Shown here piece by piece: positions 21,610 through 52,443 of a stretch of 64,000 nt of DNA. The position numbers and the translations under genes are program-made. Below the pieces are notes generated by a model that had not been told where the DNA came from, did not search any database, and was given only the letters and a program-made list of their open reading frames with translations. The stretch is from Henckelia pumila (taxonomy: Eukaryota > Streptophyta > Magnoliopsida > Lamiales > Gesneriaceae), in contig NC_133122.1 in the NCBI RefSeq assembly GCF_033568475.1, positions 168,294,130-168,358,129 of the forward strand, in the 5' to 3' direction. The number at the start of each line of letters is the position of its first letter. Within the stretch, counting starts at the first letter, position 1.

Positions 21610-21614
21610 GCACA
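21610..21614. repeat. Target-site duplication GCACA (left) of the copia element
   Basis: GCACA here matches GCACA at 29985-29989, directly outside the two LTRs. This proves a single insertion event. Confidence 0.9.
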
Positions 21615-25209: not shown

Positions 25210-25253
25210 AAACTAAAAGGAATAACCAAATGGTACAAGTCTTGAAACAGAAA

Positions 25254-25847: not shown

Positions 25848-26305
25848 AAAGTTATATCCACCTCAAGTATTTTCAGTCGAGCTGCTATATCCCGCATTTT
25901 CATGATGTGCTCGCGCACACTTCTCACATTGGTGAGCCTTAATGAAGAGAATTCCATAAATAGGGTGCTGGCAAGTGCCTTATCTGAAGACTGAAATTGT
26001 TCATCAATAGCCTTCAGTAATTCTTTGACATTATTATGCTGATCGACAGAACCATGCATACCAGCAGAGATCTTGGTCTTTATGAACATTACGCAGAGTC
26101 TATTAGATCGCTCCCACTTTTCATAAAGATCAACATCATCTGAAATGCTATTTTCAGTAATAGCAGGTGATTCGTCTTTCCGAATAGCATAATCAATATC
26201 CATCCACCATAATTGAAGAAGAATTCTTTCTTTCCATATTTTATAATTATCGCCCTTTAGACTGGGAATATCACATTTCATATCAGAAAAACTCGCAGGT
26301 TGCAT
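25829..26305 (-). pseudogene. Copia gag N-terminus
   Basis: ATG at 26305 opens 158 codons with the UBN2-type gag domain of copia elements (SLKGDNYKIWKERILLQLWW; DKALASTLFMEFSSLRLTNV; VREHIMKMRDIAARLKILEV). It ends just after a frameshift near 25847, where the downstream frame continues the same domain. This start is chosen because it follows the long leader and matches the family's MxxxFS.M..IP.L.G.NY layout. Confidence 0.85.
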
Positions 26306-27673: not shown

Positions 27674-27686
27674 GGCTCTGATACCA
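27674..27686 (-). promoter_or_regulatory. Primer binding site of the copia element
   Basis: The minus strand reads TGGTATCAGAGCC two bases inside the 5' LTR, the initiator tRNA-Met complement. Confidence 0.9.
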
Positions 27687-27688
27687 AA

Positions 27689-30969: not shown

Positions 30970-31983
30970 AAAGAAATCCAGAATAAAATAATAAAATTAA
31001 TTCAACACATCTGGCGACGCAAGATCGTACATTTGGCGACGCAAAATCACGTTGCGAAATGAATAATTTTTTTTTTTTTAAAAAAAAACTAGCGCGTTTG
31101 CGCTAGAAACTAGCGCAGAATGCGCTACTCACTAGCGCAAACGTGCTAGTGAGGGATTTTCAAGGGGCGCGCATATGCGCCCCTCCCTAGCGCATATGCG
31201 CTAGGGATTCTTCAAAAAAATTCCAAAACTCGGCCACTTTGCGCCTTTGCGGGGAAAAATAGGCGCATCTGCGGCCTCTCATTTATCAAATCTCTGTAAA
31301 ATCACGCATATGCTCAAAAATCAAACGCATCTGCTCAAATAAAATTTCCAGTCGGATCTCAAATCTCGAAAATAATCGACAACTCCAAAAATTCCAGAAA
31401 TCTAAAAATCTCAAAATAGTCGATAACATACAATCAAAAGGAGTTTACAAATATTAAAAACGAGATTCTAATACATCGTTTTAACTAAAATATAAAATCA
31501 AGTTTTACAAATCACACTCGATAAAACTCCAACATAAAATCCTGAAATCAACTTCTACAACAAGATCAAACTAGCCAAGCTTTTTCTGACTCGATCCTGC
31601 CCCACCTGTTGCCAAGTACACATAAAAAACAAGACAACATCCGGATATTCCGGTGAGAATAATATTCCCAGTAAAAGTAACATAACATGCAATATCAGAT
31701 AATATATCAATTTCATAATATATAAAACAACATATTAAAAAATGAATAGAATGAAATGCATGTCTTTCAAATCATGATTATCTAAGTCGGATAATCAATT
31801 CGTTTCGTAATTTCTTCGTTTCGTCGGTTGGGATCCCGAGGCCAAGATATCACAACAACTCACCTACTCTCCCATTCGAGGTGGAAGATTGTATATTTCG
31901 ATCCTATAGACTTTGGAGCAACTATAAGGAGCATTCTAGCTCTTGAAAAAACTCGAAATCCAAGGCCACTCGATTATAGTTAC
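30970..31983 (-). repeat. Gypsy B 3' LTR, far segment (R-U5 side), with GC-rich palindromes
   Basis: No gene. The segment holds LTR-like wording (CTCGATCCTGCCCCACCTGTTGCC near 31595; CCGGATATTCCGG near 31642) and a patch of GC-rich palindromes at 31080-31270 such as TAGCGCATATGCGCTA. It is separated from the other parts of this LTR (43703-43767 and 54240-54859) by the two Athila elements. The exact left border is not resolved; an inverted pair CATTTGGCGACG / CGTTGCGAAATG lies at 31031-31062. Confidence 0.5.
31979..31983. repeat. Target-site duplication GTTAC (left) of Athila-LOG copy 1
   Basis: GTTAC here and at 43703-43707 flank the two LTR ends exactly, showing a single intact insertion of copy 1. 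Confidence 0.92.
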
Positions 31984-33651
31984 TGCTACAACTTAAATTG
32001 TAATTCACCCAAGTGTAGGTTGTCTGCAAGTAATATACTCGTGAGTACGAGATCGATCCACGGAGAGGATGTTGTAAGTTTAATTTTAGCAATAATATAT
32101 TATAGATGAAAATATTATTATAAAACTTCAAATACACAAATTATAAAATTGTCAAGGTTTCAAAGGTTCATTGTTGGTTTATTTAAGATTGTTTAATAAA
32201 AATAAATAAAAGAAACTAAAATAAGAATAAACATAAAAGAACAATGAAATATTTAAACAAGTATATCATATAATATAGTTCCCACTATATTAATATCAGT
32301 CGATATTTAATACATGGTACCCATAATATATATATAAATGCATAAATATAAATTGACATAAAAGTAAATGTTAGATCAAATCACAATATTTCATTTAGAA
32401 CAACCGGCAGAGCCACGCTATCGTCAAAATAAAATATATGACTTTATGTTAGATGCGATAAAGTAAATGTTAGTTGCGGAAAAGTAAATGTTATATGCGA
32501 GAAAGTAAATGTTAGTTGCGAAAAAGTAAATGTTAGTTGCGATAAAGTAAAAGTTAGATGCGAGAAAGTAAATGTTAGTTCAAATCACAATATATTATTT
32601 AGAACAACCGACAGTGTCACGCTATCGTCTAAATAATATATATGACTTTATTATAAATAGATACATATATTTATAGTATATAATTATTGTAGTATTTATT
32701 GTATCATATTGACAACAAATCAAGGTAACCACATTCAAGGTACCAAGCATTTGATGTAAATAGATAACAACAAATCATCCAAAATTATACCTACAAATAA
32801 AGATCAATTAGTAAAAATAAAAATAGAAAAGAAAAGAATATACAAAATATAAAAAATCTTACTTGACCAACAATGAAACCTTTTCACCTTGACATAAATA
32901 GATTTAGTTTTCCATGAACATGAAACTCAAGAATAAAGATAAAAGAAATTTCATACTTGAACTTGAGAAACTTGCACACTCAAACTTTTATTCTCACACA
33001 CACAATATTTATTTTACAAATGAAGAATTCTCTACACTCTTGCACACTACAAAGCTTATACAACACATCTATTTATAGGCCAAATGAGAGCAAGAGTCCA
33101 AGGCTCATTAAATGTGAAATAGTAAAGTTGGTGGGTGCTTGTCTCCTTGAATGTCAATACCATGACCCAACTTTAATTGGCATGTTTGATGCCTTAGACC
33201 ACCGATTCAGCCTTTCTTTTCAACATAGAACACGTAGGATATTTTGTGTAGATGTGTTTGGACAACTCATTCACCCCTTTTGGATAAAATATGAAATACT
33301 TATGATATTTTTACTCCAAGCTGGTCATAGTAAAAGTAAATCTATCTCCATTTTGATGTTTGATTATTTTGATCATCTTAATGAAGTTTTTGGAATTTCT
33401 TGTCTTCTACAAAGTTGAAGATGCCTCTTTTGTGATTCTACAGGTTTTGAGATTACTCCATTATGACCTCTGTAGCTTGAGTAATTTTATTTTTACCAAA
33501 CCTGCGCAAACCGTAAAATACAATATTTTAGTAAAACATTTAAATATAAACACATAACACTAAAATAATACAACTTCATAATTTTAATTAAACTTAAAAT
33601 TTAAAACACACTTTTTAACATATAAATAATTACAAATTTTAAGTTTCATCA
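31984..33651 (-). repeat. 3' LTR of Athila-LOG copy 1
   Basis: 1668 bp, TGCTACAAC...TTTCATCA on the plus strand (TG...CA). TATA box CTATAAATAG on the minus strand at 33069-33078. Downstream in the transcribed direction lies a repeat cluster (32371-32655): about seven 20-bp units of the AGTAAATGTTAGTTGCGA type, flanked by two related 75-bp segments that contain CACGCTATCGTC. Confidence 0.95.
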
Positions 33652-35119
33652 CACCCCCAAACCGGCTAATTACTAGTCCCTTAGTAATAAAATATCATAA
33701 AATATCATAAAATCACAAGTTAGATTTTTATTCCTTAATATATATATTCAAATTTGCAAACTTTGAAATTTTAAAACACACTTGTGAGGAGATCATATGT
33801 TTATTTATAAATCTCATTATCAACCAATATATTAATATGTAATTGGATGGGCTATACATATATATTTCACACAATATCAAAATATTAAATATATATAATT
33901 TTTTTTTTTACATAAATATTTTCTAAAAACTTTGAGAATAATATAATTAAAAGGATAATAGAAATCATTTTCATAACATGTATATCATCAGGAATATTAA
34001 TGTAAAAGTCTCAACTCCATATTCTCTCGGGTTAAAGTATTTCATATATAGCTGTTTTTCACTCATGGAGTTGGAAGAAAATTATACACTCTTTGAAAAT
34101 GGCTAGTAAAGCAGACAATCAAATAACTTAATATTGAAAATAAGATAAGATGATTTACAAAGAATAAACCCATTTTTTTTTGTTTTTTTTTTTTTTTGTT
34201 TTTTTTTTGTTTTTTTGTTTTTTTGTTTTTTTGCTTGGCTGCAAAATTGTTTTTACATAATCAAATACCTCCAATAAACTTTGAAAATGTAACATTTTTT
34301 TTTAAAGTTTATTTATTTTTTTTATTTTTTATGAGGTAAATCTATTACATTAATAATTATAGTAGAGATATTAATACTCTACATCTTTACAATCAAACTT
34401 CAAACAACTTTGCAGCCAATTTTCATTTTTCTTTTTTTTTTCTTTTTTTTTTCAAAATGGGTTTAATCTAGTAATCAACCATTTCTTAATAATCAATAAA
34501 AGCTTATAAGTTGTTTTCTCAATTCTTACCCCTCACTCACAAAATTTATGTGAGTAACTATTGCACTTTTACAAATTAATTCCCTCAATTATACATGTTA
34601 TTATTTATTCAATCAATATCACTTTAATTATATACTCATAAAAGTTTTAGAAAATATGTATTTGAAAACACACAATTATATATTATTTATAACTTATATC
34701 CCATCAATTATATATTTTCTATTAAATTGATAAAAAGAAGAATAAATAAACATCTATACAAAAAGACTTCATTTTCTTAGTAGTTTGCAATTTAAATATA
34801 TACGGAATATTAAAATCTAATCTATTGTGATAAGATGATAAATAAACACTAATGCGTGTCAGGAGTTTTTGACTCCTTACTCTGCCATTGAAAAAGAAAA
34901 ATAAATATTATTATAGAAATATATTTTTTTTAAAAAAATTTTAAATTTTTTTTTTTTTTTTTTTAGAGATAAACCCTCCCCCAAGCCTGAATATGACATT
35001 GTTTTTAATTTTTTTTTTTTTTTTTTTTTAAGAAAAATAAAGAGTACATGATGAAAGAGATATCACCTGGAATTATTGAAGATGAGGAACAAACACAAAC
35101 CATTTCATGACATGTTGAA
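33652..35119 (-). other. 3' untranslated region of copy 1, with polypurine tracts and hairpin
   Basis: No gene in 1.47 kb. It ends at a polypurine tract (minus strand TTTGGGGGTG before the LTR at 33651). A second G-rich run (minus strand GGGGGAGGG, 34974-34982) lies close after the LOG stop codon. An inverted-repeat block at about 34160-34470 pairs AAACCCATTTT with AAAATGGGTTT and TTGGCTGCAAAATTGTT with its near-complement. Long T and A runs are interspersed. Confidence 0.7.
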
Positions 35120-35758
35120 TCAATGATCCAGTTTTCTTTTCTTACTGGTTGGTTGAGACCAATTGATCTTTGTTATAGCTGAATCAGGTTGATGAACAAA
35201 AGCTTGGAGATCATCAATTAATTGGTCTTCATTCGAAGCAGAGATGAGCATCCTTCGTGAATTTTCTGAAATAAAATTTTGTTCCACGGCTACATCGAGA
35301 AAAGTTAACAAACCATCATAATAGTTATTGATATTCAACAAGCCAACAGGTTTATTATGGATATTAAGTTGTGCCCAAGAAACAACATGAAAAATTTCTT
35401 CTAAAGTACCAAAACCACCAGGTAAGGCAATAAAAGCATCAGAATTTTCTATCATTTTAGTTATTCTCTCGTACATTGATGAAACTTTCAACTCTTCCCC
35501 AACCGTAACACCTGTAATATTTCCTTCAGCTAAAGCTGTAGGAATAATACCCAAAACCTGACTACCTCCAAGATGAGCTGCTGTTGAAATAGATCCCATT
35601 AACCCTATATTGCCTCCTCCGTAAACCAAGTGAATTTTTCTCTCTGCTAACTTTTTTCCAAGATTAATTGCTGCATCAACAAATATTTCATTCTTTCCAG
35701 TATTAGAACCACAAAAGACACAAATATTTTTCAATTTTTGTGAAGAAGATCCTGTCAT
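35120..35758 (-). CDS. LOG: LOG-type cytokinin riboside 5'-monophosphate phosphoribohydrolase, copy 1
   Basis: An intact, intronless 212-codon ORF. LOG enzymes release active free-base cytokinin from its riboside 5'-monophosphate in one step, normally in the cytosol and nucleus. The sequence shows the family's Rossmann-type start (NICVFCGSN), YGGGNIGLMG (about residues 46-55), an Arg at the expected active-site position in MYERITKM, the signature PGGFGTLEE (about 114-122) and the following SWAQLNIHNKPVGLLN. Length matches plant LOGs (about 210-220). Plant LOG genes have introns, so capture through an RNA copy is likely. The C-terminus ends SKKRKLDH, a possible nuclear localisation signal. It lies inside the retrotransposon, downstream of pol, in the same orientation. 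An origin as lysine-decarboxylase-like family member is the older name for the same fold. Confidence 0.93.
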   Translation of the reverse strand: MTGSSSQKLKNICVFCGSNTGKNEIFVDAAINLGKKLAERKIHLVYGGGNIGLMGSISTAAHLGGSQVLGIIPTALAEGNITGVTVGEELKVSSMYERITKMIENSDAFIALPGGFGTLEEIFHVVSWAQLNIHNKPVGLLNINNYYDGLLTFLDVAVEQNFISENSRRMLISASNEDQLIDDLQAFVHQPDSAITKINWSQPTSKKRKLDH

Positions 35759-35950
35759 GTTTTTTTCTTTTCTTTTAAAAAATATAGAGAGAGTTGAGTG
35801 ATTTTATAAGGAAAACAAGGAATAAGACAGAAATAGGAATACAGATGTGAACAAAATGATAAAAATAGTAAAAAAAATAATAATATATAATAATAACATG
35901 CATGCGTATAAACAGTGATGTGATTGTGGCTCACAGTGTTCCTTCAATAT
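35759..35950 (-). promoter_or_regulatory. Spacer before LOG (copy 1) with TATA-like motif
   Basis: On the minus strand TTATAAAATCACTC lies about 45 bases before the LOG ATG, followed by a CT-rich stretch (CTCTCTATATTTTTT). The same motif is in copy 2 at 50307-50315. It could be a promoter brought along with the captured gene; the pyrimidine-rich stretch could instead help splicing. Confidence 0.4.
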
Positions 35951-36502
35951 TTATGAGTCGAGGGTTGGCTTACCATCTAATTTTCTTATAAATTGGCAAA
36001 TAGGGTCTTTTTTAGTCAGATTCCCAAGACCATCACCATGACGCTGCGCTTGGAATAGTTTCCATAAACGGAGAAGTTGACCTTGTACATCTCCACTAGA
36101 ATGCGTCTCAAGAGTTAATGAGATATCATCCAATGACTCTTTACTCAGCCCATTCTTAATGAAATCAATTTTATCTTCTCTATTTGTGGAAACATATCCC
36201 AAAGATCTGCATTGTCTATTACAAGTCCATCTGGCACAATTATGACAAACATCTAACCTTTTAGCCCTTCTTTTCTTCGCATAGGTACTTTTTCCTAGTC
36301 CAGACATATTTCGAACAAGTAAGAATTTTGGAACTTCACCACCTAATCGAACCTTGGCTTCAATTATAAGACGAATATCCTCCGGGATTCCTTTTTGCAT
36401 AAGCATTCTCAATCTTTCACATCTGCCTTCATAAATCATTCTCAGAACTTTTTTAGAAACAGATGGAAAATATTTACCAAGTTTTTTGATAGCTTCATCC
36501 AT
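35951..36502 (-). CDS. NABP-like basic cysteine-rich protein, copy 1
   Basis: An intact 183-codon ORF, MDEAIKKLGKYF to KPTLDS. An N-terminal helical part (to about residue 60) is followed by a basic run, SGLGKSTYAKKRRAKR (about 68-83). A zinc-finger-like CHNCARWTCNRQC and a short hydrophobic DFIKNG segment come next. A GxGxSxYAxxRRA basic motif directly before paired cysteines is the layout of the carlavirus nucleic-acid-binding protein family (Viral_NABP), whose members bind nucleic acid and in some viruses affect silencing or host gene expression. That assignment is from motif memory and needs a profile search. It occupies the env-like position of Athila elements, between pol and LOG. Alternative: an unrelated nucleocapsid-like duplication. 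Confidence 0.6.
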   Translation of the reverse strand: MDEAIKKLGKYFPSVSKKVLRMIYEGRCERLRMLMQKGIPEDIRLIIEAKVRLGGEVPKFLLVRNMSGLGKSTYAKKRRAKRLDVCHNCARWTCNRQCRSLGYVSTNREDKIDFIKNGLSKESLDDISLTLETHSSGDVQGQLLRLWKLFQAQRHGDGLGNLTKKDPICQFIRKLDGKPTLDS

Positions 36503-36648
36503 AATATATATTTATATATATATATATTCAATTATTTTGGGAAATTGAAATAAAACCGACTGAAAGTAGTCACGGAGTACCGTTATCCGCCACTTAACCG
36601 GGAAGTGAACTCAATTCTGCAAAAATAAAATAAAAATATAAGTAACAA
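36503..36648 (-). promoter_or_regulatory. Splice-acceptor-like site between pol and the accessory ORFs (copy 1)
   Basis: Thirty or so bases after the pol stop, the minus strand reads TTTTATTTTATTTTTGCAG (acceptor AG at 36617-36618). It is T-rich with a CAG end, as in plant 3' splice sites, and is conserved in copy 2 at 49484-49503. It would place the NABP-like ATG first in a spliced RNA. Confidence 0.5.
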
Positions 36649-37815
36649 TTAAGTTGGATCATATAAAGGCATAAACTCTTCATTAAGAACTTTATTTTCT
36701 ATAAACGGTTTAAGTCTTTGCCCATTAACTTTAAATACATTATTATTTTTAGGATTTTCAACATCAACAGCACCATGAGGATAGACAAATTTAACAATAA
36801 ATGGTCCAGACCATCGCGATCTAAGTTTTCCTGGAAACAAATGCAAGCGAGAATTATAAAGTAAAACTTTTTGTCCGATTTCAAAAGATTTTCTCATAAT
36901 ATTTTTATCATGAAATGCTTTTGTTTTATCTTTATAAATCTTTGCATTTTCATATGCATCATTTCTTAATTCTTCTAGTTCATTTAATTGCAATTTTCTT
37001 GATTTAGATGCATCATCTAAATTAGTATTAAACGCTTTAATTGCCCAATAAGCTTTATGTTCAATTTCAACAGGTAAATGACAATGCTTTCCAAAAACTA
37101 ATCTGTATGGTGACATCCCCATTGATGTTTTAAATGCAGTTCTATATGCCCATAATGCATCACTTAATCTTAAAGACCAATCTTTTCGATTTGGATTGAC
37201 TGTTTTTTCCAAAATTTGTTTTATTTCTTTATTTGCAAGTTCAACCTGACCATTCGTTTGAGGGTGATATGGAGTAGAGACTTTATGTGTAATACCATAT
37301 TTTCTTAACAACGAAGAAAATGATTTATTTATAAAATGACTTCCCCCATCACTTATTATAGCTCTAGGTATTCCAAATCGACTAAAAATATTTTCTTTCA
37401 AAAATTTTATCACAACTTTATGATCATTAGTTCTACATGCAATTGCTTCAATCCATTTTGAAACATAATCGACAGCTACTAAAATATAAGTGAATCCAAA
37501 AGATAATGGAAATGGACCCATAAAATCTATTCCCCAACTGTCAAATATTTCAATAATCATGATTGGATTTAAAGGCATCATGTTTCGTTTTGAAATTGAA
37601 CCCATTTTCTGACAATTTTCACAAGATTTGCAAAATGAATGTGTATCTTTGAATAAAGAAGGCCAATAAAATCCACATTGAAAGATTTTTGCAGCTGTTT
37701 TCTTTGACGAAAAATGACCTCCACATGCCTCAGAATGACAAAATTTAATGACACTACTTACCTCATTGTCGGGTATGCATCGTCGAAAAATTTGATCAGG
37801 ACAATACTTAAACAA
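36649..37815 (-). pseudogene. Athila integrase, copy 1, separated from pol by a frameshift
   Basis: A 388-codon frame with the HHCC zinc region ([28 protein letters not shown]), the DDE core ([50 protein letters not shown]) and the C-terminal [21 protein letters not shown] and [19 protein letters not shown] blocks. It overlaps the upstream frame by 58 bases. Copy 2 has one more A in the run after GAGGTC (48276-48284) and stays open, so copy 1 lost a single base. The domain is otherwise complete. Confidence 0.9.
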
Positions 37816-40800
37816 ATAAGGATCATCCCAATAAAATTTTTGACCTCTTTCAAGAATTTATTTTTATCTTGTGAACTCCAATGAGAAGGCATTTTATTTG
37901 TCACAAGAAAATTTACAATATTAGCAAACCAAGGCATAGTAGTAGCATAAAATAGTTGATCATCCGGAAAATTTTCATTTATTGGTATTTCATTTTGAGA
38001 TGATTCAAAAATTATTCTTGATAAATGATCGGCTACTACATTTTCTTTTCCTTTTTTATCTTTTATTACAAGATCAAATTCTTGTAACAACAAAATCCAT
38101 CTTATTAATCTCGGCTTAGCATCTTGTTTATTTGATAAATATTTTATGGCAGAATGATCAGTGTAAACAATAGTAGTAGAACCAATTAAATAGGATCGAA
38201 ATTTATCTAATGCAAACACTACTGAAAGTAATTCTTTTTCAGTTGTTGAATAATTGATTTGAGCACTATTTAAGGTTCTACTTGCATAATAGATCACATA
38301 AGGTTTACCTTCTTTTCTTTGTCCTAACACGGCTCCTACAGCATAATCACTTGCATCACACATTAATTCAAATGGTAAAGACCAATCAGGAGGTTGTAAA
38401 ATAGGTGATGTAGTTAAAAGATTAATTATCTTTTTAAAAGCAGTTTCACATTCTTGAGTCCATTCAAATTGTGCATTTTTTGTTAAAAGATTTGAAATTG
38501 GTTTCGATATTATGCTAAAATTTTTTATAAATCTTCTATAAAATCCCGCATGACCCAAAAATGATCGAATTTCTTTGATCGTGTTTGGTGATGGTAAATT
38601 AGCAATAACATCAACCTTAGCTTTATCAACTTCAATTCCTTTTTCAGATATGGCATGCCCTAACACAATTCCGGATTTAACCATGTAGTGACATTTTTCC
38701 CAATTTAAAACAAGATTTTTTTCTTCACATCTTTTTAAAACTTCTTCCAAATTTTTAAGACAGTTTTCAAATGAGTTTCCAAAAACAGTTATATCATCCA
38801 TAAAAACTTCCACAAATTCTTCAATCATGTCACTAAAAATACTTAGCATGCATCTTTGAAAAGTAGCCGGGGCATTACATAAACCAAATGGCATTCTTTT
38901 AAAAGCAAAAGTTCCGAACGGACAAGTGAAAGTAGTTTTTTCTTGATCTTCTAATGATATTGGTATTTGATAATACCCCGAATACCCATCAAGAAAACAA
39001 TAATAAGGATTACCTGCCACTTTCTCTAAAATTTGATCTAAAAATGGTAACGGAAAGTGATCTTTTCTAGTTGCATCATTTAATTTTCTATAATCAATGC
39101 ACATACGCCAACTAGATGGAATCCTAGCTTGTAATAATTCTCCCTTTTCATTTTTTATAACAGTGATGCCTGATTTTTTTGGTACTACTTGTGTTGGACT
39201 TACCCATTTACTATCCGAGATTGGATAAATAATTCCGGCATCTAATAGTTTTAAAACTTCATTTTTAACAACTTCTTTCATGTGTGGATTTAATCTTCTT
39301 TGTGGTTGTTGATATGTTTTAGCATTTTCTTCCAAATGAATTCTATGTGTGCAGATTAAAGGATTTATACCTTTTATATCTTGCAAAGTCCATCCAATTG
39401 CATTTTTGTGTTTTTTAAGTAGTGTTATTACATCTTCTTCTTGTTTTGGTAAGAGGGTAGAAGATATTACAATAGGATATGTTTGATTTTCACCAAGAAA
39501 AGCATATTTTAGTTCTATTGGCAAGGGTTTTAATTCAAGTTTTGGATGATCATTTTCTTTTACTTCTTCAAGTTCATTAATTTCTTCAAATAACTTTGAT
39601 TTAAAAACATTTTTTGAATCAAAACTTTCCACTAAACAAACTTCAGATTGTTGATTTAAGTTTTCTTGGTGTATATTTTCTTCCACAATTGTTTCTATTG
39701 CATTATCATCTTCATCTTCATTAATACTTGGTTGTTTACATAAATTGAACACATTAAGTTCTAAAGTCATATTTCCAAAAGACAATTTCATTATTCCATT
39801 TCGACAATTAATTAAAGCATTTGAAGTTGCTAGAAATGGACGTCCCAATATTACTGGAATTTCGTTATGTACTTCTATTGGTTGTGTATCCAAGACAATA
39901 AAATCCACAGGATATATGAATTTATCGACTTGAACTAACACATCTTCTACGATACCTCTAGGTATTTTGATTGACCTATCGGCTAGTAAAAGAGTAACAG
40001 ATGTAGGTTTTAAATCTCCCAACTTAAGCTTTTCATAAACTGAATAAGGAATTAAATTCACACTTGCTCCCAAATCTAACAAAGCTTTTTTAATTTTATT
40101 TTTTCCAATAATACATGAAATTGTTGGACAACCGGGATCTTTATATTTCAAAGTAGAATTATTTTGAATAATAGAACTTACTTGCTCCGTTAAGAATGCT
40201 TTCTTCTTTACATGCAATTGTCTTTTTACAGTACATAAATCTTTTAAAAACTTTGCATAAGAAGGCACTTGTTTAATAGCATCTAATAATGGAATATTTA
40301 TTTTTACTTGTTTAAAAACTTCATAAATATCAGAATCATTTTTTTGTTTTTTATTATTAACTAATGCATGAGGGAAAGGAACATGTTTATTTGACTCACA
40401 TATTATTTCAGATAATTTATCATCAACTTTCTTAATCTTAGGACTCAAAGTATCATCTTTCTCGAAAGTATCAAGATTTTCATCCTTACTCTTTGAGTTT
40501 GACTGATATTTGTTTTCATCACTATATGGATCATTAACTATTTTACCACTTCTAAGAGTAATAACAGATTTTACTTGATCAAATTTTTCTTGATTTTGAT
40601 TTTTAGGATTAGGTTGTGGTTGAGATGGAAATTTTCCTTTTTCATGAATATTAAGTGCAGATGCAAATTTTGCAAGAGTTTCTTTCAAATCATTCATAGA
40701 TTGAATGTTTTGAATATTGATAGACTCTTGCTTTTGAATGTATGCATGAATTTCATCTTCAAAATTTTTTCTTGGAGGTGGGATATAAGGAGCATAACCT

Positions 40801-41957
40801 TGATGATTTTGGTTATTTTGAAAAGGTTGTTGTGAAGGTTGTGAATTATTATCGTTCCTCCAACTAAAATTGGGATGATTTCTCCAACCAGGATTGTATG
40901 TTTGTGAAAAAGGATCTAATGTTGGTTTTTTAAAATTGTTAACATAATTGGCTTGTTCATGGAGACATTCTTTAAATGAAGGCAAAGTAGGACAATTTTT
41001 TGTAAGATGATCATGTGTGTCACATATATGACAAACAATTTCTTGAACACTTTTTAATTGATCACTCTTTTTCATTTCTAATGACTCGATTTTTCTTGCT
41101 AAAGATGCAAGTTTAGCTTGAACATCTACATCATCTTTAAGATGATAAGTACCACCCCCATTTGTTGAATTATTGGTTTTACTTGGTGGTTCAATTGAGC
41201 CTATATTATCCCAATTTTGAGCATTTTCTGCTAATGACTCCAAATATTCCATAGCTTCATTTGGGTTTTTATCTTCAAAAGTTCCATTACACATGAATTC
41301 TATCATTTGCCTATCTTTAGGTATTAAACCTTCATAAAAGTGAGAAACTATTCTCCATATTTCAAAACCATGATGTGGGCATGTATTAAGTAACTCTTTA
41401 TATCTATCCCAACATTGATAAAATGTTTCCCCTTGTTTTTGAGAAAAAGTTGTAATTTGTCTTTTAAAAGAGTTTGTTCTATGGGAAGGAAAAAACTTTT
41501 TTAGAAATTGTTGTTGCATTTCTTCCCATGATCTTATTGAACTTGATCTCAAATTTTGCAACCATGTTTTAGCTTTATCTTTTAAGGAAAAAGGGAAAAG
41601 CTTTAATCGAACAGTATCCATGCTACAATTTTGATCATTATAAGTGTTGCAAACCTCCTCAAATTCTCTTAAATGCAAATATGGATTTTCAGAATCTAAG
41701 CCATGAAAATTTGGTAAAAGTTGAATGACTTGTGGCTTAAAATTGAAATTAGATGCATCAGGAGGAAAAACTAAACAAGATGGTGTACTAGTTCTTATTG
41801 GATTCATATGGTGCCTAAGTGTTCTTGGTTGTTCATGTTCTTGATGATTATTATTATTATTATTATCATCTTGATTATTAGAATTATCGTCCATGTTTAA
41901 AATATTTTCAGTTACTCGAACAAGTCTACCACTTTGTTTACGACTCCAAACAATCAT
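37758..41957 (-). CDS. Athila Gag-protease-RT-RNase H polyprotein, copy 1
   Basis: 1399 codons. Gag domain at about residues 75-250 ([33 protein letters not shown]), CCHC knuckle [14 protein letters not shown] (about 308-321), aspartic protease with the Athila-style [17 protein letters not shown] (about 626), RT with FMDD in [13 protein letters not shown] (about 1050), and RNase [17 protein letters not shown] (about 1198). The frame shifts after FLKEVK, so integrase is not fused. A second in-frame Met (MDDNSN) is at codon 22. The domain order, DLG protease and tRNA-Asp primer site fit the Athila lineage. It provides particle, processing and cDNA synthesis. Confidence 0.92.
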
Positions 41958-42013
41958 ACAATTAAAAACAACATACTATTTACATAATAACAAAATTAAA
42001 CTTAATTTATACC

Positions 42014-42031
42014 TCCCCGGCAACGGCGCCA
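42014..42031 (-). promoter_or_regulatory. Primer binding site, tRNA-Asp type (copy 1)
   Basis: The minus strand reads TGGCGCCGTTGCCGGGGA six bases inside the 5' LTR, the aspartate tRNA complement typical of Athila elements. It is followed by GGTATAAATT, a possible splice donor. Confidence 0.9.
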
Positions 42032-42037
42032 AAAACT

Positions 42038-43702
42038 TGCTACAACTTAAATTGTAATTCACCCAAGTGTAGGTTGTCTGCAAGTAATATACTCGTGAGT
42101 ACGAGATCGATCCACGGAGAGGATGTTGTAAGTTTAATTTTAGCAATAATATATTATAGATGAAAATATTATTATAAAACTTCAAATACACAAATTATAA
42201 AATTGTCAAGGTTTCAAAGGTTCATTGTTGGTTTATTTAAGATTGTTTAATAAAAATAAATAAAAGAAACTAAAATAAGAATAAACATAAAAGAACAATG
42301 AAATATTTAAACAAGTATATCATATAATATAGTTCCCACTATATTAATATCAGTCGATATTTAATACATGGTACCCATAATATATATAAATGCATAAATA
42401 TAAATTGACATAAAAGTAAATGTTAGATCAAATCACAATATTTCATTTAGAACAACCGGCAGAGCCACGCTATCGTCAAAATAAAATATATGACTTTATG
42501 TTAGATGCGATAAAGTAAATGTTAGTTGCGGAAAAGTAAATGTTATATGCGAGAAAGTAAATGTTAGTTGCGAAAAAGTAAATGTTAGTTGCGATAAAGT
42601 AAAAGTTAGATGCGAGAAAGTAAATGTTAGTTCAAATCACAATATATTATTTAGAACAACCGACAGTGTTACGCTATCGTCTAAATAATATATATGACTT
42701 TATTATAAATAGATACATATATTTATAGTATATAATTATTGTAGTATTTATTGTATCATATTGACAACAAATCAAGGTAACCACATTCAAGGTACCAAGC
42801 ATTTGATGTAAATAGATAACAACAAATCATCCAAAATTATACCTACAAATAAAGATCAATTAGTAAAAATAAAAATAGAAAAGAAAAGAATATACAAAAT
42901 ATAAAAAATCTTACTTGACCAACAATGAAACCTTTTCACCTTGACATAAATAGATTTAGTTTTCCATGAACATGAAACTCAAGAATAAAGATAAAAGAAA
43001 TTTCATACTTGAACTTGAGAAACTTGCACACTCAAACTTTTATTCTCACACACACAATATTTATTTTACAAATGAAGAATTCTCTACACTCTTGCACACT
43101 ACAAAGCTTATACAACACATCTATTTATAGGCCAAATGAGAGCAAGAGTCCAAGGCTCATTAAATGTGAAATAGTAAAGTTGGTGGGTGCTTGTCTCCTT
43201 GAATGTCAATACCATGACCCAACTTTAATTGGCATGTTTGATGCCTTAGACCACCGATTCAGCCTTTCTTTTCAACATAGAACACGTAGGATATTTTGTG
43301 TAGATGTGTTTGGACAACTCATTCACCCCTTTTGGATAAAATATGAAATACTTATGATATTTTTACTCCAAGCTGGTCATAGTAAAAGTAAATCTATCTC
43401 CATTTTGATGTTTGATTATTTTGATCATCTTAATGAAGTTTTTGGAATTTCTTGTCTTCTACAAAGTTGAAGATGCCTCTTTTGTGATTCTACAGGTTTT
43501 GAGATTACTCCATTATGACCTCTGTAGCTTGAGTAATTTTATTTTTACCAAACCTGCACAAACCGTAAAATACAACATTTTAGTAAAACATTTAAATATA
43601 AACACATAACACTAAAATAATACAACTTCATAATTTTAATTAAACTTAAATTTAAAACACACTTTTTAACATATAAATAATTACAAATTTTAAGTTTCAT
43701 CA
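42038..43702 (-). repeat. 5' LTR of Athila-LOG copy 1
   Basis: 1665 bp. It differs from the 3' LTR by a 2-bp change in an AT run (near 42380), three substitutions and one missing A near 43650. TATA box on the minus strand at 43119-43128. It is the only complete 5' LTR of the pair, so it is the promoter most likely to drive copy 1. Confidence 0.95.
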
Positions 43703-43767
43703 GTTACCAAATCATCTAATTTGATATGCAATCAAATCATTTAATTTGGTATGAATGCTGGGTACCA
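43703..43767. repeat. 65-bp spacer between the two Athila elements (gypsy B LTR piece)
   Basis: It begins with the GTTAC duplication and contains a direct repeat (AAATCATCTAATTTGATATG and AAATCATTTAATTTGGTATG). It belongs to the DNA into which both elements inserted. Confidence 0.6.
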
Positions 43768-44103
43768 TGTATTAAATATCGGTTAATCTGATATTAATAT
43801 AGTGGGAACTATATTATATGATATACTTGTTTAAATATTTCATTGCTCTTTTATGTTTATTTTTATTTTAGTTTCTTTTATTTATTTTTATTTAGCAATC
43901 TTAAATAAACCAACAATGAACCTTTGAAACCTTGACAATTTTATAATTTGTGTATTTGAAGTTTTATAATAATATTTTCATCTATAATATATTATTGCTA
44001 AAATTAAACTTACAACATCCTCTCCGTGGATCGATCTCGTACTCACGAGTATATTACTTGCAGACAACCTACACTTGGGTGAATTACAATTTAAGTTGTA
44101 GCA
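43768..44103 (+). repeat. Truncated 5' LTR of copy 2
   Basis: It matches the final part of the 3' LTR at 53894-54239, starting at GGGTACCATGTATTAAAT. It lacks U3, the TATA box and the 20-bp repeat cluster. Confidence 0.9.
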
Positions 44104-44109
44104 AGTTTT

Positions 44110-44127
44110 TGGCGCCGTTGCCGGGGA
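44110..44127 (+). promoter_or_regulatory. Primer binding site and adjacent splice-donor-like site (copy 2)
   Basis: TGGCGCCGTTGCCGGGGA, the tRNA-Asp complement. The next bases GGTATAAAT give GGGGAG|GTATAA, a plausible 5' splice donor at 44128/44129. Confidence 0.8.
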
Positions 44128-44183
44128 GGTATAAATTAAGTTTAATTTTGTTATTATGTAAATAGTATGTTGTTTTTAATTGT

Positions 44184-45815
44184 ATGATTGCTTGGAGTCG
44201 TAAACAAAGTGGTAGACTTGTTCGAGTAACTGAAAATATTTTAAACATGGACGATAATTCTAATAATCAAGATGATAATAATAATAATAATCATCATCAA
44301 GAACATGAACAACCAAGAACACTTAGGCACCATATGAATCCAATAAGAACTAGTACACCATCTTGTTTAGTTTTTCCTCCTGATGCATCTAATTTCAATT
44401 TTAAGCCACAAGTCATTCAACTTTTACCAAATTTTCATGGCTTAGATTCTGAAAATCCATATTTGCATTTAAGAGAATTTGAGGAGGTTTGCAACACTTA
44501 TAATGATCAAAATTGTAGCATGGATACTGTTCGATTAAAGCTTTTCCCTTTTTCCTTAAAAGATAAAGCTAAAACATGGTTGCAAAATTTGAGATCAAGT
44601 TCAATAAGATCATGGGAAGAAATGCAACAACAATTTCTAAAAAAGTTTTTTCCTTCCCATAGAACAAACTCTTTTAAAAGACAAATTACAACTTTTTCTC
44701 AAAAACAAGGGGAAACATTTTATCAATGTTGGGATAGATATAAAGAGTTACTTAATACATGCCCACATCATGGTTTTGAAATATGGAGAATAGTTTCTCA
44801 CTTTTATGAAGGTTTAATACCTAAAGATAGGAAAATGATAGAATTCATGTGTAATGGAACTTTTGAAGATAAAAACCCAAATGAAGCTATGGAATATTTG
44901 GAGTCATTAGCAGAAAATGCTCAAAATTGGGATAATATAGGCTCAATTGAACCACCAAGTAAAACCAATAATTCAACAAATGGGGGTGGTATTTATCATC
45001 TTAAAGATGATGTAGATGTTCAAGCTAAACTTGCATCTTTAGCAAAAAAAATCGAGTCATTAGAAATGAAAAAGAGTGATCAATTAAAAAGTGTTCAAGA
45101 AATTGTTTGTCATATATGTGACACACATGATCATCTTACAAAAAATTGTCCTACTTTGCCTTCATTTAAAGAATGTCTCCATGAACAAGCCAATTATGTT
45201 AACAATTTTAAAAAACCAACATTAGATCCTTTTTCACAAACATACAATCCTGGTTGGAGAAATCATCCCAATTTTAGTTGGAGGAACGATAATAATGCAC
45301 AACCTTCACAACAACCTTTTCAAAATAACCAAAATCATCAAGGTTATGCTCCTTATATCCCACCTCCAAGAAAAAATTTTGAAGATGAAATTCATGCATA
45401 CATTCAAAAGCAAGAGTCTATCAATATTCAAAACATTCAATCTATGAATGATTTGAAAGAAACTCTTGCAAAATTTGCATCTGCACTTAATATTCATGAA
45501 AAAGGAAAATTTCCATCTCAACCACAACCTAATCCTAAAAATCAAAATCAAGAAAAATTTGATCAAGTAAAATCTGTTATTACTCTTAGAAGTGGTAAAA
45601 TAGTTAATGATCCATATAGTGATGAAAACAAAGATCAATTAAACTCAAAGAGTAAGGATTCAAATCCTGATACTTTTGAGAAAGATGATGCTTTGAGTTC
45701 TAAAAATAAGAAAATTGATGATAAAATAAATAAACATGTTCCTTTTCCTCATGCATTAGTAAATAATAAAAAACAAAAAATAATTCTGATATTTATGAAG
45801 TTTTTAAACAAGTAA
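44184..45815 (+). pseudogene. Athila Gag, copy 2, frameshifted
   Basis: 543 codons that match copy 1 through the gag domain and the CCHC knuckle ([14 protein letters not shown]), then run out of frame after NNKKQK near 45778. Copy 2 has one A fewer in the A-run here and a nearby G-to-A change. It also has a short in-frame deletion (DDKINKHV against a longer acidic stretch in copy 1). The protease-pol part continues in another frame, so Gag and Pol are uncoupled. Confidence 0.9.
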
Positions 45816-45850
45816 AAATAAATATTCCTTTATTAGATGCTATTAAACAA

Positions 45851-48800
45851 GTGCCTTCTTATGCAAAGTTTTTAAAAGATTTATGTACTGTGAAAAGACA
45901 ATTGCATGTAAAGAAGAAAGCATTCTTAACGGAGCAAGTAAGCTCTATTATTCAAAATAATTCTACCTTGAAATATAAAGATCCCGGTTGTCCAACAATT
46001 TCATGTATTATTGGAAAAAATAAAATTAAAAAAGCTTTGTTAGATTTGGGAGCAAGCGTGAATTTAATTCCTTATTCAGTTTATGAAAAGCTTAAGTTGG
46101 GAGATTTAAAACCTACATCTATCACTCTTTTACTAGCCGATAGGTCAATCAAAATACCTAGAGGTATCATAGAAGATGTGTTAGTTCAAGTCGATAAATT
46201 CATATATCCTGTGGATTTTATTGTCTTGGATACACAACCAATAGAAGTACATAACGAAATTCCACTAATATTGGGACGTCCATTTCTAGCAACTTCAAAT
46301 GCTTTAATTAATTGTCGAAATGGAATAATGAAATTGTCTTTTGGAAATATGACTTTAGAACTTAATGTGTTCAATTTATGTAAACAACCAAGTATTAATG
46401 AAGATGAAGATGATAATGCAATAGAAACAATTGTGGAAGAAAATATACACCAAGAAAACTTAAATCAACAATCTGAAGTTTGTTTAGTGGAAAGTTTTGA
46501 TTCAAAAAATGTTTTTAAATCAAAGTTATTTGAAGAAATTAATGAACTTGAAGAAGTAAAAGAAAATGATCATCCAAAACTTGAATTAAAACCCTTGCCA
46601 ATAGAACTAAAATATGCTTTTCTTGGTGAAAATCAAACATATCCTATTGTAATATCTTCTACCCTCTTACCAAAACAAGAAGAAGATGTAATAACACTAC
46701 TTAAAAAACACAAAAATGCAATTGGATGGACTTTGCAAGATATAAAAGGTATAAATCCTTTAATCTGCACACATAGAATTCACTTGGAAGAAAATGCTAA
46801 AACATATCAACAACCACAAAGAAGATTAAATCCACACATGAAAGAAGTTGTTAAAAATGAAGTTTTAAAACTATTAGATGCCGGAATTATTTATCCAATC
46901 TCGGATAGTAAATGGGTAAGTCCAACACAAGTAGTACCAAAAAAATCAGGCATCACTGTTATAAAAAATGAAAAGGGAGAATTATTACAAGCTAGGATTC
47001 CATCTAGTTGGCGTATGTGCATTGATTATAGAAAATTAAATGATGCAACTAGAAAAGATCACTTTCCGTTACCATTTTTAGATCAAATTTTAGAGAAAGT
47101 GGCAGGTAATCCTTATTATTGTTTTCTTGATGGGTATTCGGGGTATTATCAAATACCAATATCATTAGAAGATCAAGAAAAAACTACTTTCACTTGTCCG
47201 TTCGGAACTTTTGCTTTTAAAAGAATGCCATTTGGTTTATGTAATGCCCCGGCTACTTTTCAAAGATGCATGCTAAGTATTTTTAGTGACATGATTGAAG
47301 AATTTGTGGAAGTTTTTATGGATGATATAACTGTTTTTGGAAACTCATTTGAAAACTGTCTTAAAAATTTGGAAGAAGTTTTAAAAAGATGTGAAGAAAA
47401 AAATCTTGTTTTAAATTGGGAAAAATGTCACTACATGGTTAAATCCGGAATTGTGTTAGGGCATGCCATATCTGAAAAAGGAATTGAAGTTGATAAAGCT
47501 AAGGTTGATGTTATTGCTAATTTACCATCACCAAACACGATCAAAGAAATTCGATCATTTTTGGGTCATGCGGGATTTTATAGAAGATTTATAAAAAATT
47601 TTAGCATAATATCGAAACCAATTTCAAATCTTTTAACAAAAGATGCACAATTTGAATGGACTCAAGAATGTGAAACTGCTTTTAAAAAGATAATTAATCT
47701 TTTAACTACATCACCTATTTTACAACCTCCTGATTGGTCTTTACCATTTGAATTAATGTGTGATGCAAGTGATTATGCTGTAGGAGCCGTGTTAGGACAA
47801 AGAAAAGAAGGTAAACCTTATGTGATCTATTATGCAAGTAGAACCTTAAATAGTGCTCAAATCAATTATTCAACAACTGAAAAAGAATTACTTTCAGTAG
47901 TGTTTGCATTAGATAAATTTCGATCCTATTTAATTGGTTCTACTACTATTGTTTACACTGATCATTCTGCCATAAAATATTTATCAAATAAACAAGATGC
48001 TAAGCCGAGATTAATAAGATGGATTTTGTTGTTACAAGAATTTGATCTTGTAATAAAAGATAAAAAAGGAAAAGAAAATGTAGTAGCCGATCATTTATCA
48101 AGAATAATTTTTGAATCATCTCAAAATGAAATACCAATAAATGAAAATTTTCCGGATGATCAACTATTTTATGCTACTACTATGCCTTGGTTTGCTAATA
48201 TTGTAAATTTTCTTGTGACAAATAAAATGCCTTCTCATTGGAGTTCACAAGATAAAAATAAATTCTTGAAAGAGGTCAAAAAATTTTATTGGGATGATCC
48301 TTATTTGTTTAAGTATTGTCCTGATCAAATTTTTCGACGATGCATACCCGACAATGAGGTAAGTAGTGTCATTAAATTTTGTCATTCTGATGCATGTGGA
48401 GGTCATTTTTCGTCAAAGAAAACAGCTGCAAAAATCTTTCAATGTGGATTTTATTGGCCTTCTTTATTCAAAGATACACATTCATTTTGCAAATCTTGTG
48501 AAAATTGTCAGAAAATGGGTTCAATTTCAAAACGAAACATGATGCCTTTAAATCCAATCATGATTATTGAAATATTTGACAGTTGGGGAATAGATTTTAT
48601 GGGTCCATTTCCATTATCTTTTGGATTCACTTATATTTTAGTAGCTGTCGATTATGTTTCAAAATGGATTGAAGCAATTGCATGTAGAACTAATGATCAT
48701 AAAGTTGTGATAAAATTTTTGAAAGAAAATATTTTTAGTCGATTTGGAATACCTAGAGCTATAATAAGTGATGGGGGAAGTCATTTTATAAATAAATCAT

Positions 48801-49471
48801 TTTCTTCGTTGTTAAGAAAATATGGTATTACACATAAAGTTTTTACTCCATATCACCCTCAAACGAATGGTCAGGTTGAACTTGCAAATAAAGAAATAAA
48901 ACAAATTTTGGAAAAAACAGTCAATCCAAATCGAAAAGATTGGTCTTTAAGATTAAGTGATGCATTATGGGCATATAGAACTGCATTTAAAACATCATTG
49001 GGGATGTCACCATATAGATTAGTTTTTGGAAAGCATTGTCATTTACCTGTTGAAATTGAACATAAAGCTTATTGGGCAATTAAAACGTTTAATACTAATT
49101 TAGATGATGCATCTAAATCAAGAAAATTGCAATTAAATGAACTAGAAGAATTAAGAAATGATGCATATGAAAATGCAAAGATTTATAAAGATAAAACAAA
49201 AGCATTTCATGATAAAAATATTATGAGAAAATCTTTTGAAATCGGACAAAAAGTTTTACTTTATAATTCTCGCTTGCATTTGTTTCCAGGAAAACTTAGA
49301 TCGCGATGGTCTGGACCATTTATTGTTAAATTTGTCTATCCTCATGGTGCTATTGATGTTGAAAATCCTAAAAATAATAATGTATTTAAAGTTAATGGGC
49401 AAAGACTTAAACCGTTTATAGAAAATGAAGTTCTTAATGAAGAGTTTATGCCTTTATATGATCCAACTTAA
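45851..49471 (+). CDS. Athila protease-RT-RNase H-integrase, copy 2
   Basis: 1206 codons, open from just before the protease to the end of integrase. Protease [12 protein letters not shown] (about residue 69), RT FMDD (about 495), RNase [13 protein letters not shown] (about 640), HHCC zinc region ([10 protein letters not shown] ... [11 protein letters not shown], about 845-885) and the DDE core ([31 protein letters not shown]). It stays in frame where copy 1 is shifted. The listed start at 45851 is the first Met after the gag frameshift, not a natural start. All catalytic motifs I can check are kept, so enzymes may be active if translated. Confidence 0.88.
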
Positions 49472-49483
49472 TTGTTACTTATA

Positions 49484-49503
49484 TTTTTATTTTATTTTTG
49501 CAG
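49484..49503 (+). promoter_or_regulatory. Splice-acceptor-like site after pol (copy 2)
   Basis: A T-rich tract ending TTTTTGCAG, 30 bases after the pol stop and 111 bases before the NABP-like ATG. It is conserved with copy 1. A matching donor is possible at 44128/44129. Confidence 0.5.
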
Positions 49504-49614
49504 AATTGAGTTCACTTCCCGGTTAAGTGGTGGATAACGGTACTCCGTGACTACTTTCAGTCGGTTTTATTTCAATTTCCCAAAATAATTGAATATATAT
49601 ATATAATATATATT

Positions 49615-50124
49615 ATGGATGAAGCTATCAAAAAACTTGGTAAATATTTTCCATCTGTTTCTAAAAAAGTTCTGAGAATGATTTATGAAGGCAGATGTGA
49701 AAGATTGAGAATGCTTATGCAAAAAGGAATCCCGGAGGATATTCGTCTTATAATTGAAGCCAAGGTTCGATTAGGTGGTGAAGTTCCAAAATTCTTACTT
49801 GTTCGAAATATGTCTGGACTAGGAAAAAGTACCTATGCGAATAAAAGAAGGGCTAAAAGGTTAGATGTTTGTCATAATTGTGCCAGATGGACTTGTAATA
49901 GACAATGCAGATCTTTGGGATATGTTTCCACAAATAGAGAAGATAAAATTGATTTCATTAAGAATGGGCTGAGTAAAGAGTCATTGGATGATATCTCATT
50001 GACTCTTGAGACGCATTCTAGTGGAGATGTACAAGGTCAACTTCTCCATTTATGGAAACTATTCCAAGCGCAGCGTCATGGTGATGGTCTTGGGAATCTG
50101 ACTAAAAAAGACCCTATTTGCTAA
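49615..50124 (+). pseudogene. NABP-like protein, copy 2, late stop
   Basis: It matches copy 1 for 169 codons, including the basic GKSTYANKRRAKR run (one Lys to Asn change) and the CHNCARWTCNRQC cysteine cluster. A CAA-to-TAA change then ends it 14 codons early (KKDPIC, stop). The conserved core is retained, so it may still be functional. It lies between pol and LOG as in copy 1. Confidence 0.6.
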
Positions 50125-50354
50125 TTTATAAGAAAATTGGATGGTAAGCCAACCCTCGACTCATAAATATTGAAGGAACACTGTGAGCCACAATCACATC
50201 ACTGTTTATACGCATGCATGTTATTATTATATATTATTTTTTTTTACTATTTTCATCATTTTGTTCACATCTGTATTCCTATTTCTGTCTTATTCCTTGT
50301 TTTCCTTATAAAATCACTCAACTCTCTCTATATTTTTTAAAAGAAAAAAAAAAC
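50125..50354 (+). promoter_or_regulatory. Spacer before LOG (copy 2) with TATA-like motif
   Basis: TATAAAATC at 50307-50315 lies 40 bases before the LOG ATG at 50355. It follows a long pyrimidine-rich stretch (CTGTATTCCTATTTCTGTC) and precedes CAACTCTCTCTAT. It could be a captured promoter with a very short leader, or part of a 3' splice site with AG at 50342-50343. Confidence 0.4.
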
Positions 50355-50993
50355 ATGACAGGATCTTCTTCACAAAAATTGAAAAATATTTGTATCTTTT
50401 GTGGTTCTAATACTGGAAAGAATGAAATATTTGTTGATGCAGCAATTAATCTTGGAAAAAATTTAGCAGAGAGAAAAATTCACTTGGTTTACGGAGGAGG
50501 CAATATTGGGTTAATGGGATCTATTTCAACAGCAGCTCATCTTGGAGGTAGTCAGGTTTTGGGTATTATTCCTACAGCTTTAGCTGAAGGAAATATTACA
50601 GGTGTTACGGTTGGGGAAGAGTTGAAAGTTTCATCAATGTACGAGAGAATAACTAAAATGATAGAAAATTCTGATGCTTTTATTGCCTTACCTGGTGGTT
50701 TTGGTACTTTAGAAGAAATTTTTCATGTTGTTTCTTGGGCACAACTTAATATCCATAATAAACCTGTTGGCTTGTTGAATATCAATAACTATTATGATGG
50801 TTTGTTGACTTTTCTCGATGTAGCCGTGGAACAAAATTTTATTTCAGAAAATTCACGAAGGATGCTCATCTCTGCTTCGAATGAAGACCAATTAATTGAT
50901 GATCTCCAAGCTTTTGTTCATCAACCTGATTCAGCTATAACAAAGATCAATTGGTCTCAACCAACCAGTAAGAAAAGAAAACTGGATCATTGA
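50355..50993 (+). CDS. LOG: LOG-type cytokinin riboside 5'-monophosphate phosphoribohydrolase, copy 2
   Basis: 212 codons, intact. It differs from copy 1 at two positions, Val to Ile in NICIFCGS and Lys to Asn in NLGKNLAE. It keeps YGGGNIGLMG, the Arg in MYERITKM, PGGFGTLEE and the C-terminal SKKRKLDH. An upstream in-frame extension (to 50214) exists, but the ATG at 50355 matches copy 1 and the family's N-terminus. A-rich sequence precedes the ATG, typical of plant leaders. Transcription would have to come from a spliced or internal promoter, since this copy's 5' LTR has no TATA box. Confidence 0.93.
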   Translation: MTGSSSQKLKNICIFCGSNTGKNEIFVDAAINLGKNLAERKIHLVYGGGNIGLMGSISTAAHLGGSQVLGIIPTALAEGNITGVTVGEELKVSSMYERITKMIENSDAFIALPGGFGTLEEIFHVVSWAQLNIHNKPVGLLNINNYYDGLLTFLDVAVEQNFISENSRRMLISASNEDQLIDDLQAFVHQPDSAITKINWSQPTSKKRKLDH

Positions 50994-52443
50994 TTCAACA
51001 TGTCATGAAATGGTTTGTGTTTGTTCCTCATCTTCAATAATTCCAGGTGATATCTCTTTCATCATGTACTCTTTATTTTTCTTAAAAAAAAAAAAATTAA
51101 AAACAATGTCATATTCAGGTTTGGGGGAGGGTTTATCTCTAAAAAAAAAAAAAAAAAAAAATTTAAAATTTTAAAAAAAAAAATATTTCTATAATAATAT
51201 TTATTTTTCTTTTTCAATGGCAGAGTAAGGAGTCAAAAACTCCTGACACGCATTAGTTTTTATTTATCATCTTATCACAATAGATTAGATTTTAATATTC
51301 CGTATATATTTAAATTGCAAACTACTAAGAAAATGAAGTCTTTTTGTATAGATGTTTATTTATTCTTCTTTTTATCAATTTAATAGAAAATATATAATTG
51401 ATGGGATATAAGTTATAAATAATATATAATTGTGTGTTTTCAAATACATATTTTCTAAAACTTTTATGAGTATATAATTAAAGTGATATTGATTGAATAA
51501 ATAATAACATGTATAATTGAGGGAATTAATTTGTAAAAGTGCAATAGTTACTCACATAAATTTTGTGAGTGAGGGGTAAGAATTGAGAAAACAACTTATA
51601 AGCTTTTATTGATTATTAAGAAATGGTTGATTACTAGATTAAACCCATTTTGAAAAAAAAAAAAGAAAAATGAAAATTGGCTGCAAAGTTGTTTGAAGTT
51701 TGATTGTAAAGATGTAGAGTATTAATATCTCTACTATAATTATTAATGTAATAGATTTACCTCATAAAAAATAAAAAAAAAATAAACTTTGAAAAAAAAA
51801 AATGTTACATTTTCAAAGTTTATTGGAGGTATTTGATTATGTAAAAACAATTTTGCAGCCAAGCAAAAAAACAAAAAAACAAAAAAAAAACAAAAAAACA
51901 AAAAAAAAAAACAAAAAAAAAATGAGTTTATTCTTTGTAAATCATCTTATCTTATTTTCAATATTAAGTTATTTGATTGTCTGCTTTACTAGCCATTTTC
52001 AAAGAGTGTATAATTTTCTTCCAACTCCATGAGTGAAAAACAGCTATATATGAAATACTTTAACCCGAGAGAATATGGAGTTGAGACTTTTACATTAATA
52101 TTCCTGATGATATACATGTTATGAAAATGATTTCTATTATCCTTTTAATTATATTATTCTCAAAGTTTTTAGAAAATATTTATGTAAAAAAAAAATTATA
52201 TATATTTAATATTTTGATATTGTTTGAAATATATATGTATAGCCCATCCAATTACATATTAATATATTGGTTGATAATGAGATTTATAAATAAACATATG
52301 ATCTCCTCACAAGTGTGTTTTTAAAATTTCAAAGTTTGCAAATTTGAATATATATATTAAGGAATAAAAATCTAACTTGTGATTTTATGATATTTTATGA
52401 TATTTTATTACTAAGGGACTAGTAATTAGCCGGTTTGGGGGTG
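50994..52443 (+). other. 3' untranslated region of copy 2
   Basis: It mirrors 33652-35119, with a G-run GGGGGAGGG at 51123-51131, the hairpin block at about 51635-51930 and the polypurine tract at 52434-52443. Homopolymer A runs differ in length from copy 1. No gene. Confidence 0.7.

Follow-up and report, generated by a model that had tools for sequence, protein, structure and literature searches.

A LOG phosphoribohydrolase gene and a viral-type cysteine-rich ORF after pol in Ty3/gypsy retrotransposons of Henckelia pumila: a possible accessory module

The function of extra ORFs in plant LTR elements is mostly not known. In the stretch of Henckelia pumila DNA studied here (contig NC_133122.1, positions 168,294,130 to 168,358,129; 64,000 nucleotides, hereafter the window), an earlier note made from the letters alone had placed an intact gene for a LOG cytokinin-activating enzyme between pol and the 3' LTR of an Athila-type element, with a second copy elsewhere in the window. 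The question raised by this locus is whether such a gene is part of the element and, if so, what it could do for it. With a hormone enzyme located next to a viral-type protein, the role of such extra ORFs becomes open to direct assay.

The anatomy of the two copies, here called A and B, with an intact LOG gene and its family motifs in each, is practically certain (Table 1). Element A has two LTRs, TG...CA ends, a target-site duplication, a primer-binding site and a polypurine tract. Its LTRs differ by three substitutions and two gaps; if plants are taken to accumulate 7e-9 to 1.3e-8 substitutions per site and year, the divergence corresponds to an age of about 70,000 to 130,000 years. A is a recent insertion. 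The interval 35120-35758 given in the earlier note was right, and its strand is minus: read on the plus strand it contains many stops, while on the minus strand an ATG opens a frame of 212 aa. As the note had claimed, this frame is intact and lies between pol and the 3' LTR, inside the LTRs of A, and a second gene is present at 50355-50993, on the plus strand, encoding the same protein but for two amino-acid changes. Element A is complete; in B the 5' LTR is truncated, each gag-pol is frameshifted, and a further frame, ORF2, lies between pol and LOG. There is one gag-pol frameshift per copy and the sites differ, with the integrase off-frame in A and gag off-frame in B. Because of these frameshifts, neither A nor B need be autonomous.

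Table 1. Features of elements A and B in the window, with strand and basis of assignment
Feature	Position	Strand	Basis or remark
Element A, complete LTR retrotransposon	31984..43702	-	LTR pair and 5-bp duplication GTTAC on both flanks
Left target-site duplication GTTAC of A	31979..31983	.	
Right target-site duplication GTTAC of A	43703..43707	.	
5' LTR of A	42038..43702	-	Repeat comparison
Primer-binding site of A, TGGCGCCGTTGCCGGGG	42015..42031	-	Sequence
Gag, protease-like, RT and RNase H of A, 1399 aa	37758..41957	-	Pfam
Integrase of A	36649..37815	-	Pfam; frame differs from rest of gag-pol
ORF2 of A, 183 aa, Viral_NABP / Carla_C4 families	35951..36502	-	Pfam
LOG of A, 212 aa, intact	35120..35758	-	Pfam, NCBIfam, PDB relative, predicted structure
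C-terminal basic tail KKRKLDH of LOG A	35123..35143	-	NLS-like, without LxLxL
Polypurine-like tract of A, TTGGGGGTG, before 3' LTR	33652..33660	-	
3' LTR of A, ends TGATGAAAC...GTTGTAGCA	31984..33651	-	99.64% identity with 42038-43702
Element B, 5' LTR truncated	43759..54239	+	98.5% identical to A over 10.2 kb
Remaining 345 bp of 5' LTR of B	43759..44103	+	344/345 identical to 53895-54239
Primer-binding site of B, TGGCGCCGTTGCCGGGG as in A	44110..44126	+	
Gag of B	44184..45815	+	Pfam, frames; frame differs from pol
Pol of B (protease-like, RT, RNase H, integrase), 1206 aa	45851..49471	+	Pfam
ORF2 of B	49615..50124	+	Pfam, comparison with A; 14 residues shorter at its end than that of A
TATAAAA, 48 nt before LOG B	50307..50313	+	Sequence
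LOG of B, 212 aa, intact	50355..50993	+	Another in-frame ATG at 50214
Polypurine-like tract of B, TTGGGGGTG, before 3' LTR	52435..52443	+	
3' LTR of B	52444..54239	+	

The two elements are oppositely oriented. At 43703-44103, A stands head to head with the truncated 5' LTR of B, about 50 bp apart, and the repeat comparison of the window found no missing portion of the B LTR to the left of A. Ahead of LOG B, the TATAAAA is a candidate promoter of its own, which could possibly permit a separate LOG transcript. In the interval between LOG and the 3' LTR of A, a second G-rich tract, GGCTTGGGGGAGGG (34970-34990, minus strand), is possibly an extra polypurine tract. A run of A after LOG was considered as the scar of a captured mRNA and rejected, since runs of A are found all over the 3' region.

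The Pfam scan, which covered ten ORFs, eight from A and B and two from another element, gave the same series of domains in both copies, i.e., gag, protease-like, RT, RNase H, integrase, ORF2 and LOG, the protease-like match falling under its cut-off. The order RT-RNase H-integrase assigns them to Ty3/gypsy. Neither a chromodomain nor a second (archaeal-type) RNase H was found in the pol ORFs (Pfam, E 0.001), and the primer-binding site of both copies is of the tRNA-Asp type. The name Athila in the earlier note is consistent with the primer-binding site and with the absence of such Pfam matches, and the elements may be called Athila-like by their primer-binding site. Athila elements are alike in the type of primer-binding site and in giving no chromodomain match. 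Members of the Athila group that carry additional ORFs downstream of pol, before the 3' LTR, are described in PMC7264820 and PMC6317226, and they resemble A and B in the position of these ORFs and in domain order. However, the extra ORFs reported there are env-like or carry Athila ORF-1 domains, while here they are ORF2 and LOG. In the latter paper, extra ORFs were listed from at least 250 codons only (PMC6317226); both ORF2 and LOG, being shorter than this, would fall below such a listing.

That the encoded protein is a LOG homolog is not a chance match. The family signatures named in the earlier note are indeed present: both window proteins match Pfam PF03641 (Lysine_decarbox) at about 1e-38 to 1e-39, score above the cut-off of TIGR00730 (NCBIfam) and contain the GGG...PGGxGTxxE motifs of LOG phosphoribohydrolases. 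With the LOG equivalog NF058542 they reached 122.9 and 122.0 bits against a cut-off of 300, a value which plant LOGs may not attain. The closest solved relative is Arabidopsis At2g37210 (LOG3; PDB 2a33; E 3e-64), which was also the top Foldseek match of the AlphaFold model (pLDDT 85.7; E 5e-21, TM by target 0.94), and the four top Foldseek rows were AtLOG3 and AtLOG8. In fold and motifs the window LOG is like Arabidopsis LOG3 (2a33) and LOG8 (1ydh); it differs from them in identity (51% and 49%, respectively), in falling into a separate clade and in its basic tail. Judged by the modelled fold and the retained motifs, production of free cytokinin by this protein is plausible, and the enzyme is probably catalytically active.

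The earlier note regarded the capture of such a gene as not described, and this has to be corrected, as LOG in plant Gypsy elements is already in print. When the LTR elements of 121 angiosperm genomes were screened for additional domains, a YgdH (LOG) domain was reported in Gypsy consensuses of Citrus sinensis and C. clementina and, once the filter was switched off, in Populus trichocarpa as well, in agreement with the survey of Steinbauerova et al. 2011 (PMC9289625). These elements share with A and B a LOG domain inside a plant Gypsy LTR element, and Citrus and Populus were also among the matches listed in our LOG, ORF2 and integrase searches. By contrast with what is presented here, the section of that paper on YgdH elements mentions no ORF2-type neighbour, tail, order, age or function. 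The same paper describes an m6A demethylase ORF in Gypsy elements of orchids, likewise a captured enzyme in plant Gypsy; this demethylase was active in vitro, and differs from the present case in being another enzyme in another lineage (PMC9289625). No report of an ORF2-LOG pairing in retrotransposons was found in the literature searched, the coverage of which was partial, with most subscription journals outside it. The pairing with ORF2 and the tail of LOG are the testable and surprising features, the core LOG fact having precedent.

ORF2 of A scored above the Pfam cut-offs of Viral_NABP (PF05515; 25.9 vs 23) and Carla_C4 (PF01623; 23.1 vs 20.9), matching part only of the viral profile. Both are families of viral cysteine-rich proteins, of which some members are silencing suppressors. 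Like carlavirus and related cysteine-rich / NABP proteins, ORF2 has a basic stretch that precedes a four-cysteine pattern, and it passes both cut-offs; unlike them, it is encoded by a retrotransposon and the profile match is partial. Of 288 candidates in the ORF2 search, 229 were homologues. In the best 120 of these 229, all homologues with an organism name were from plants and 109 retained the four-cysteine pattern, and of 19 rows chosen from 122, 18 matched Viral_NABP and 17 Carla_C4 at E 0.001. The structure of ORF2 was poorly predicted (pLDDT 53), no solved relative was found (best E 0.15), and a viral contig collection contained no relative of ORF2 when searched with the ORF2 alignment.

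A protein search for related elements, as proposed in the earlier note, was productive. There were 7909 matches to the integrase, of which the best 120 were examined, those outside the window being predicted proteins only. According to precomputed domains, the ORF2 family occurs in three of these 120 (P0267, P0289 and P0304) and a LOG domain in one (P0304); as most of these genes are separate ORFs, such same-protein counts neither test nor support the module. In P0304, from Primulina huaijiensis, the Pfam scan found integrase (rve) and LOG, and BLAST aligned 159 columns with ORF2 at 42% and 115 with LOG at 72%, the LOG part being incomplete, i.e., without about its first third and with the PGG motif altered. 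The integrase is followed by ORF2 in P0267 of Primulina eburnea (79% over 169) and in P0289 of Citrus clementina (64% over 168), and P0211 of Rhamnella is 65% identical to P0289 across the integrase end and ORF2. Predicted gene models thus show ORF2 directly after integrase in Primulina, Citrus and Rhamnella, and the order integrase-ORF2-LOG in one Primulina model with its LOG part incomplete. LOG after integrase and ORF2 was found in Primulina and in the window. The three genera with integrase-ORF2 models presumably span Lamiales, Sapindales and Rosales. LOG and ORF2 relatives fell on longest contigs of equal size in five pairs, two of which (2128 and 4511 bases) were of at least 2000 bases on short contigs; these two compare with a mean of 0.07 over 60 slides, the slide maximum also being two, and as linkage of LOG and ORF2 the equal sizes are suggestive only. 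The module is very likely conserved in one element lineage, and the occurrence of relatives in other plants suggests an accessory kit that has been retained rather than an accident.

For LOG itself, at least 8000 candidates were scored, with at least 7973 at E up to 0.001, and the best 120 were examined. Among the best 120 of at least 7973, organism names were those of plants only, many rows came from Reevesia, Diplodiscus, Populus and Xanthoceras, and several match clusters had many members (327 and 205). The viral contig collection gave no relative of LOG with either the LOG protein or the LOG alignment as query. The tree combined the 120 best rows and the two window copies, less the fused gene models P0003, P0004 and P0016, to give 119. 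In this phylogeny, of the kind proposed in the earlier note, the 119 closest rows form one clade apart from AtLOG3 and AtLOG8 (support 98/95), under a midpoint root; the host source of LOG was not named by it, since with these two as the sole plant references and some long branches no donor can be picked out. The window LOGs cluster with P0002, P0005 and the pair of P0010 (Primulina) and P0014 (support 100/99). Some members of the clade are annotated as host genes (LOG3-like, LOGL10) and yet group with element-borne LOG copies, a point of relevance to genome annotation. The checked motif positions are retained in 111-119 of the 119 rows; the strict joint motif pattern is found in 95 and missed by 24.

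We tentatively favour, at somewhat less than even odds, the reading that ORF2 and LOG form an accessory module after pol which a Ty3/gypsy lineage has kept for its own benefit. The module would consist of a viral-type cysteine-rich nucleic-acid-binding protein followed by a LOG phosphoribohydrolase, and it would be kept for the help that it gives the element. LOG would convert cytokinin riboside monophosphates to free cytokinin in cells expressing the element, and free cytokinin would favour division or a meristem-like condition of these cells, under which new insertions can become heritable; a benefit by way of cytokinin is possible, though we would not call it probable. ORF2 might blunt silencing or act in the nucleus, by analogy with some viral relatives; one viral cysteine-rich protein is described as a weak silencing suppressor and a transcription factor causing hyperplasia (PMC12172455). 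If true, this would be a case in which a transposon affects the development of its host as well as its own replication. The anatomy, the gene order elsewhere, the retained LOG motif positions and the report on Citrus and Populus (PMC9289625) argue for the kept module. On the other hand, the frameshifts in both gag-pols, the rows off the strict motif pattern and the defects in the LOG part of P0304 weigh against this explanation, as does the basic tail, which is suggestive of a nuclear role that cytokinin release would not need. A bolder form, in which a virus-like two-gene kit of an RNA-virus-type suppressor and a hormone enzyme with a nuclear, often co-repressor-binding tail drives host division and hence more germ-line insertions, seems to us doubtful.

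The tail bears on a different reading, according to which LOG would act in the nucleus, the basic cluster importing it and the LxLxL of most relatives recruiting a TOPLESS-type co-repressor, so that host defence or silencing genes are altered. The function of the EAR motif (LxLxL) is known from other proteins. Among 122 LOG rows, fused models P0003, P0004 and P0016 included, 98 have an LxLxL (EAR-like) C-terminal end and 107 a basic cluster, against 0.5 LxLxL ends per 119 in shuffled LOG proteins, and AtLOG3 has nine residues past its aligned part. However, the real rows are related and their counts not independent; the basic cluster is present but LxLxL absent in the window copies and in P0002, P0005, P0010 and P0014, the window LOG ending in KKRKLDH and so lacking an EAR motif; an EAR role of the tail would be by analogy with other proteins; and the catalytic motifs are kept, which a mere adaptor would not need. 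A nuclear action of this kind is rather unlikely.

That LOG and ORF2 ride as passengers, after a transcript of a host LOG was at some time captured and carried without benefit, is also unlikely. Transduction of gene pieces by LTR elements is described for Bs1 and others (PMC7264820), and the 4 of 639 bases which differ between the LOG genes of A and B, two silent and two replacement, show no visible constraint; these four differences carry no information on selection. Against carriage without benefit stand the open frame and the motif positions retained across the predicted proteins of one clade, the ORF2-LOG pair in another genus (P0304), and the LOG-domain reports from Citrus and Populus (PMC9289625). 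Even less probable is a LOG that hydrolyses AMP or another nucleoside monophosphate and serves the element through a changed nucleotide pool or altered defence signalling: the NF058542 cut-off was missed and several PDB relatives found by Foldseek were solved with AMP, but the identity to AtLOG3 and the plant LOGs at the top of the structural matches count against it. That this is an ordinary host LOG gene merely near retrotransposons, for which nothing speaks beyond LOG being a host gene family, is already contradicted by its location within LTRs, at an equal position in two copies, and after integrase and ORF2 in Primulina.

The rest of the window, with a G+C content of 34% overall, contains further repeats. 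A Ty1/copia-type element lies at 21611-28004, where 320-bp direct repeats, 98% identical, surround RVT_2 and integrase ORFs. At 59063-63579, a gag ORF is followed by a Transposase_32 ORF, a domain reported for Athila elements (PMC11728184). A tandem pair of about 240 bp each, 97.5% identical, is located at 1161-1640.
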